From Synechococcus sp. SB0662_bin_14 (GTDB lineage Bacteria; Cyanobacteriota; Cyanobacteriia; PCC-6307; Cyanobiaceae): a DNA stretch of 64,000 nucleotides. The notes under the pieces are model-generated. The model searched no databases, was not told the origin of the DNA, and saw only the letters and a program-made list of their open reading frames with translations. The stretch is taken from NCBI GenBank assembly GCA_009840445.1, contig VXNS01000084.1, positions 1 through 64,000 on the forward strand, written 5' to 3'. Shown piece by piece: positions 29,827 to 31,085 of this stretch (the first letter of the stretch is position 1; each line of letters begins with the position of its first letter). The position numbers and the translations under genes are program-made.

Positions 29827-29991
29827 GCCGGGTCAGGGTTCAGGAGCTGGTCCAGAAGGGCTGTGGTCTTCACCCTACAAGGGGGCAAGGTCGGCCGCAT
29901 TTCCGAATTTTCTCTAAAGATTTGTCAACAAACCCGTAAAGTGCTTGTCATGAACAGCGCAGAAGGCCTAGACGTGATGGCGAGGACAAAA

Positions 29992-30061
29992 CGTTGGGCG
30001 CACCCCATGGCTCCGGCTTCAGGTGCGCTGGAAGTAGCCAAACCGCGACGGTGAAGCAACG
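29992..30061 (+). ncRNA. Candidate glutamine riboswitch (glnA RNA / Downstream-peptide class)
   Basis: P1 CGTTG/CAACG (29992-29996/30057-30061), 7-bp stem GCGCACC/GGTGCGC (29998-30004/30022-30028), conserved-looking 'GGAAGTAG', then 'ACCG cga CGGT GAAG CAACG'. Lies ~33 nt upstream of the DUF4278 ORF. Confidence 0.75.
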
Positions 30062-30093
30062 CACCTCTTGAACAAAGCGGATTTCGCCAGTCC

Positions 30094-30336
30094 ATGGCTG
30101 GCACTGCCCGTTCTGTGGAGGTTTCTCTCATGGTCCAACTCAAGTATCGTGGTGTTGATTACGACACCACCCAGCGCCCTGATCTCAGTGATCAGCCGGT
30201 AGAGCACGTCTACCGTGGCATCCACTTCAACAAGGCTCCGCGCCACGAGGCCGATGCCCTGTCCGATCATCCTGTGCGGGTGAGCTATCGGGGAGCAGTC
30301 TATGAAACCCGCATCGCTTCAGCGCTGAAGCGTTAA
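30094..30336 (+). CDS. DUF4278 small protein
   Basis: Repeated 'YRGVDYD...HVYRGIHF...VSYRGAVYETR' pattern; an internal MVQLKYRG start (30130) is also plausible. Confidence 0.85.
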   Translation: MAGTARSVEVSLMVQLKYRGVDYDTTQRPDLSDQPVEHVYRGIHFNKAPRHEADALSDHPVRVSYRGAVYETRIASALKR

Positions 30337-30677
30337 TTCCGTAGCCGTAGCTACTGAAAAACAGAGGCCGCACCCCGCTAATGGTAAAGGAATCAACACT
30401 TCCCTTGATGGATCTGTTACTGAGCCCGGTGGCCGGTGTGGCTTCTTCCATATCTTCAGCATCTTTAGCCTCTGCTGGGCTTCCTTCCCCTCCAGCCCAG
30501 CGCATTTCTGTCCATAGTGCTCTGGGAATGCTGTGGCTCCAGTTGCACTTTGAAAATTGCCACTGGGACTCTTTGGCTGCCGGGCGCGTTGAGCTTGAGC
30601 CTGACACCTTGTCCGAATTTCTTTCAGATTGCTCTGCTGCTGGTGTGGTGTGCTGTAGTCCACTGCCATCAGCGTAG

Positions 30678-31085
<408 letters not shown>

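Follow-up and report, generated by a model that had tools for sequence, protein, structure and literature searches.

Glutamine riboswitches of two types have been described in cyanobacteria, and the published examples of both are activated by their ligand: glutamine raises expression via the type-1 riboswitch of gifB in Synechocystis and via a type-2 riboswitch in Prochlorococcus (PMC6316151). The aptamers, among them type 1 (the glnA class, Rfam RF01739), mainly precede DUF4278 genes, and the N-terminal part of IF17, the glutamine synthetase inactivating factor encoded by gifB, consists of DUF4278 (PMC6316151). In other cyanobacterial families RF01739 precedes both IF17-like open reading frames (ORFs) and short ones resembling IF7, the inactivating factor encoded by gifA. 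PII genes have also been reported under glnA RNAs (PMC2864571), and PirA provides a published precedent for a small protein that binds PII (PMC8092223). Here we describe a type-1 aptamer upstream of a small DUF4278 gene in the window, by which we mean the whole 64,000-nucleotide stretch that was analysed. Since the aptamer class, its ligand and its association with DUF4278 genes are already published (PMC6316151), the window copy belongs to an established type; the leader that surrounds it is possibly a new variant.

The genome belongs to the clade of the sponge symbiont Candidatus Synechococcus spongiarum, whose assemblies, together with related ones, supply the nearest relatives of the DUF4278 protein (73-96% identical). 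The initial annotation had seen a glutamine-riboswitch-like RNA at 29,992-30,061, and the stretch (+ strand) agrees with that description base for base. The closing stem P1 pairs CGTTG (29,992-29,996) with CAACG (30,057-30,061), and the 7-bp GC-rich stem P2 pairs GCGCACC (29,998-30,004) with GGTGCGC (30,022-30,028), a hairpin that also appears in the minimum free energy fold. They are followed by the core GGAAGTAG (30,030-30,037) and by an ACCG/CGGT hairpin (30,042-30,045 with 30,049-30,052) leading into GAAGCAACG (30,053-30,061). According to the RF01739 match and the alignment of relatives, P3 proper pairs GCC (30,037-30,039) with GGT (30,050-30,052), so the ACCG/CGGT hairpin (30,042-30,052) is a local alternative within it. 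As in the gifB leader, a P1-P2-P3 junction carries the GGAAGUAG core and a GAAG-AACGC 3′ segment, a DUF4278 gene lies downstream, and the 3′ flank is complementary to the Shine-Dalgarno (SD) sequence. The window copy differs from the gifB type in its inner P1 pair, which is G-C and not C-G, and in a covarying outer helix, P0; its P3 loop bears extra bases specific to the genus.

The glnA covariance-model search, proposed in the initial annotation as the check on its reading, returned a significant match. RF01739 aligns over its full length (1-53 of 53) to 29,990-30,065 with 33.7 bits, 1.3 below the gathering cut-off of 35, and an E-value of 8e-6 in a 291-base stretch (1.4e-5 in a whole-genome search); a window search at Rfam gathering thresholds accordingly lists tRNA alone and not RF01739. 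The shortfall is probably due in part to the G-C inner P1 pair of picocyanobacterial copies. An independent covariance model, built from 29 leaders of other genera with this genus left out, matches 29,981-30,068 with 61.3 bits (E 1.2e-18), its single significant match in the 64 kb (next best in the window, E 0.75). On this sequence evidence, 29,990-30,065 is a type-1 glutamine aptamer, and its setting, a cyanobacterial DUF4278 leader, is the one that the type would lead one to expect (PF14105 at 30,130; relatives in Ca. Synechococcus spongiarum). The Downstream-peptide RNA (RF01704), which had been named alongside glnA, did not hold up: this type 2 shares the ligand class and also precedes small proteins in picocyanobacteria, but the genome has no match to it, whereas the same search finds 2-6 copies in each of 8/8 other picocyanobacterial genomes.

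RF01739 itself has two matches in the whole genome, the window copy and a second aptamer on another contig (C38:23732-23788, or L001:1501-1557), and two matches in each of 10/10 genus genomes searched; at least one occurs in 99/300 family genomes. The leaders fall into two classes, class A preceding DUF4278 genes and class B, to which the C38 copy belongs, preceding an Arg-rich ORF of 37-39 aa.

The DUF4278 gene lies just downstream of the aptamer, as had been claimed (ATG at 30,130; 30,130-30,336, + strand, 68 aa; PF14105 E 1.1e-9, 39 bits against a cut-off of 25.3). Its product is DUF4278 alone; it was considered as a full IF17 and rejected, because the IF7-like C-terminal, inhibitory part of the gifB product is absent. 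An IF7 query, which matches genomic ORFs at 100%, found no IF7 in this genome or among the other family members listed. An AlphaFold model of the 68-aa protein has three beta hairpins, but its confidence (mean pLDDT 68.9, pTM 0.35) is too low to base a fold comparison on; a search of solved structures gave no convincing match. Separately, type-1 aptamers in other cyanobacterial families directly precede proteins of 45-56 aa that carry the IF7 core (QNRQxSMLxR) and fall short of a full IF7 (loci L107, L113, L116, L122, L126, L129 and L132).

On the same strand follow a small ORF (30,381-30,677; 98 aa, or shorter from an inner ATG) and glnB, encoding the 112-aa PII protein (30,747-31,085; PF00543 E 3.9e-33). 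The start of glnB is about 0.7 kb from the aptamer, close to the 0.75 kb first given. The small ORF and its relatives share the core GMLWLQTHFE-HW and have no Pfam or NCBIfam match over cut-off. The small ORF is kept in 44/54 class-A loci, more often than glnB, which lies 0.6-0.8 kb downstream in 36/54. We found no terminator-like site on the + strand between DUF4278, the small ORF and glnB, and the three genes form a possible operon. The earlier reports of PII genes under glnA RNAs (PMC2864571) may reflect this gene order.

The neighbouring glnB also makes a tie between the DUF4278 protein and PII possible, and one can keep the riboswitch reading while supposing that the protein acts on PII, as a PirA-like competitor, and not on glutamine synthetase. 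The recurrence of glnB at 36 loci and the precedent of PirA speak for such a target. The remaining loci have no glnB motif within range, though most retain the small ORF; marine picocyanobacteria are reported to lack PirA itself (PMC8092223), and the window protein is assigned to DUF4278, a domain of the glutamine synthetase inhibitor IF17 (PMC6316151). We therefore consider action on PII rather unlikely, and a brake resembling IF17 the more probable role of the protein.

In class-A leaders the bases flanking P1 on both sides pair with each other to form P0. In the window the 5′ strand is GAGG (29,982-29,985) and the 3′ strand CCTC (30,064-30,067). The most frequent form is GAAGGA:UCCUUC, and GAGG:CCUC (this genus and three other loci), GAAAGA:UCUUUC and GGAAGA:UCUUCC are compensated variants of it. 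Across 39 leaders, counted as sequences and not as events on a tree, three pairs of P0 have both sides changed. Two of these stay intact throughout, column pair 7-118 (27 AU, 12 GC) and pair 9-116 (35 GC, 3 AU, 1 GU); the outermost and innermost pairs of the helix are missing in part of the set. Whole-structure covariation in these sequences reaches 0.249, against 0.128 for shuffles (0/500 as high), and slid controls do not exceed 0.100. P2 covaries as well, the core is invariant, and P1 is also invariant and hence uninformative. Judged from these alignments, P0 is conserved by compensatory changes in picocyanobacterial DUF4278 leaders.

The 3′ strand of P0 has complementarity to the SD as well, and this points to a translational switch of the glutamine-ON kind, built from two alternative helices that share CCTC. 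The SD, GGAGG at 30,117-30,121, lies 8 nt before the ATG and is kept in the genus. In the predicted folding ensemble ACCTCT (30,063-30,068) pairs with GGAGGT (30,117-30,122) in a hairpin spanning 30,063-30,122, with an inner hairpin at 30,086-30,102, and the SD is paired with the 3′ flank with p 0.99 when no constraint is imposed. For the window copy this OFF fold is predicted to be favoured by 6.7 kcal/mol without ligand, and for eight genus members it lies 3.9-8.8 kcal/mol below the ON fold, energies consistent with a switch that is off by default and turned on by its ligand. Throughout the genus the flank, ACCUCU or GCCUCU, pairs with the SD region GGAGGU. Among 27 leaders from other families, outside the picocyanobacteria, the flank CGCCUC is complementary to the SD GAGGCG in most; their mean SD-pairing score is 16.1 against 10.6 for shuffles, and one pair, CACCUC/GAGGUG, covaries. 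In other class-A genera the pairing is merely CCUU:GAGG and does not exceed shuffles; hence only this genus and the leaders from outside the picocyanobacteria show the SD half of the switch clearly. One class-A leader elsewhere (L029) reads GACA after position 1576 where its relatives have the SD GAGG (CCCTTCGACACGG...ATG) and may lack an SD.

Forcing P1 does not make the energy models choose the P0 state, and with both P0 and P1 forced the SD of the window copy is just 24% unpaired; the ON state would thus need a contribution from outside the model (ligand energy, kinetics or tertiary contacts). This residual pairing, like the chance-level complementarity in most other class-A genera, could be taken to mean that the aptamer binds glutamine but switches expression off, or acts on transcription, with P0 merely a clamp that stabilises P1. 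Such a mechanism sits poorly with the published type-1 and type-2 examples, which activate with glutamine (PMC6316151), with the pronounced complementarity between flank and SD in this genus and beyond the picocyanobacteria, and with the leader itself, in which no intrinsic terminator was detected on the + strand; we give it little credence. By analogy with those published examples, we infer that glutamine switches this copy on, so that the riboswitch probably turns the DUF4278 gene on at plentiful glutamine by freeing the ribosome-binding site. That the element is a decayed or look-alike sequence of other function, which no longer binds glutamine in a symbiont genome, is very improbable: the sub-threshold Rfam score, the flipped P1 pair and the additional P3 bases would fit it, but the core and junction are invariant across the 39 sequences, P2 and P0 stay paired through base changes, the aptamer is present in all ten genus genomes searched, and the other-genera model matches it with E 1.2e-18.

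The model that we prefer runs as follows. Glutamine would stabilise the three-way aptamer and P1, and the stabilised P1 would bring the P0 strands together, GAGG with CCUC, so that the anti-SD is occupied. When glutamine is lacking, CCUC would instead pair with the SD in the long hairpin and translation would be off. The small DUF4278 protein would thus be made in nitrogen excess, and it would most likely be a brake on nitrogen assimilation, like the DUF4278-bearing IF17. We hold this whole reading, a type-1 riboswitch with P0/SD exchange controlling a glutamine-ON DUF4278 brake, with good confidence, although we infer its ligand binding, its direction and the role of its protein.

The second aptamer of the genome precedes a 39-aa Arg-rich ORF (MSIITVHYLQRHREEAARRAKELAYRRRVDLHEKSVCIR) that starts at L001:1587. 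A perfect NtcA-type box, GTAGCAAATGCTAC, lies directly upstream, and the leader has GCACC/GGTGC complementarity to the SD region; this aptamer and its ORF are kept in 10/10 genus genomes searched. The NtcA consensus GTAN8TAC is found in 29/30 class-B promoters, 24 to 26 nt upstream of P1 (expected 0.46), and in none of the class-A promoters. The Arg-rich peptide occurs in 27/201 family genomes searched, all genus members included, and has no Pfam or NCBIfam match. Its RQ-x5-R-x-A-x3-G spacing resembles IF7, and we considered the 37-39-aa peptides as IF7 homologues; homology was unsupported (BLASTP E 0.004 for one pair; hhalign probability 0.9%, E 0.064).

Many class-A promoters carry a palindrome of their own, which differs from the NtcA site. 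The form TGTTCN4-5GAACA is exact in 37/54 class-A upstream regions (0.0 expected), and relatives (L024-L104) have TGTTCRCYATGAACA at a spacing of 32-35 nt before the aptamer. The window has a degenerate copy, TGCTTGTCATGAACA (29,942-29,956, + strand), this genus retaining the right half alone (TGAACA). Exact matches to TGTTCRCYATGAACA number 73 in 300 family genomes, 41 of them upstream of an RF01739 match and 39 at the 32-35 nt spacing; some of the others resemble chance matches in coding sequence. A few copies (L171, L200) lie near ORFs that resemble Amt-type transporters, an assignment made by eye and not by profile. At one further locus (L191, G013:C7) a picocyanobacterial DUF4278 gene has the palindrome in its promoter and no recognisable aptamer in its leader, perhaps a lost riboswitch. 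Somewhat doubtfully, we put forward a picocyanobacterial type-1 variant in which one strand is contested between P0 and the SD; in addition, the same leaders could be controlled through TGTTCRCYATGAACA by a nitrogen regulator that is not NtcA and whose targets would include Amt-type ammonium transporter genes. In the literature covered, which takes in Klahn et al. 2018 by way of a review, we found no earlier description of P0, of the strand that the two helices share, of the retained small ORF or of the palindrome.

Two type-1 switches are thus retained in a sponge symbiont in whose genome no type-2 glutamine switch was detected, and the two-helix model offers a testable account of how a type-1 riboswitch may act on translation. 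Picocyanobacteria are said to lack full-length glutamine synthetase inactivating factors (PMC6316151), and this group may restrain nitrogen assimilation by other means, for which the DUF4278 protein under riboswitch control and the peptides of 37-39 aa are candidates.
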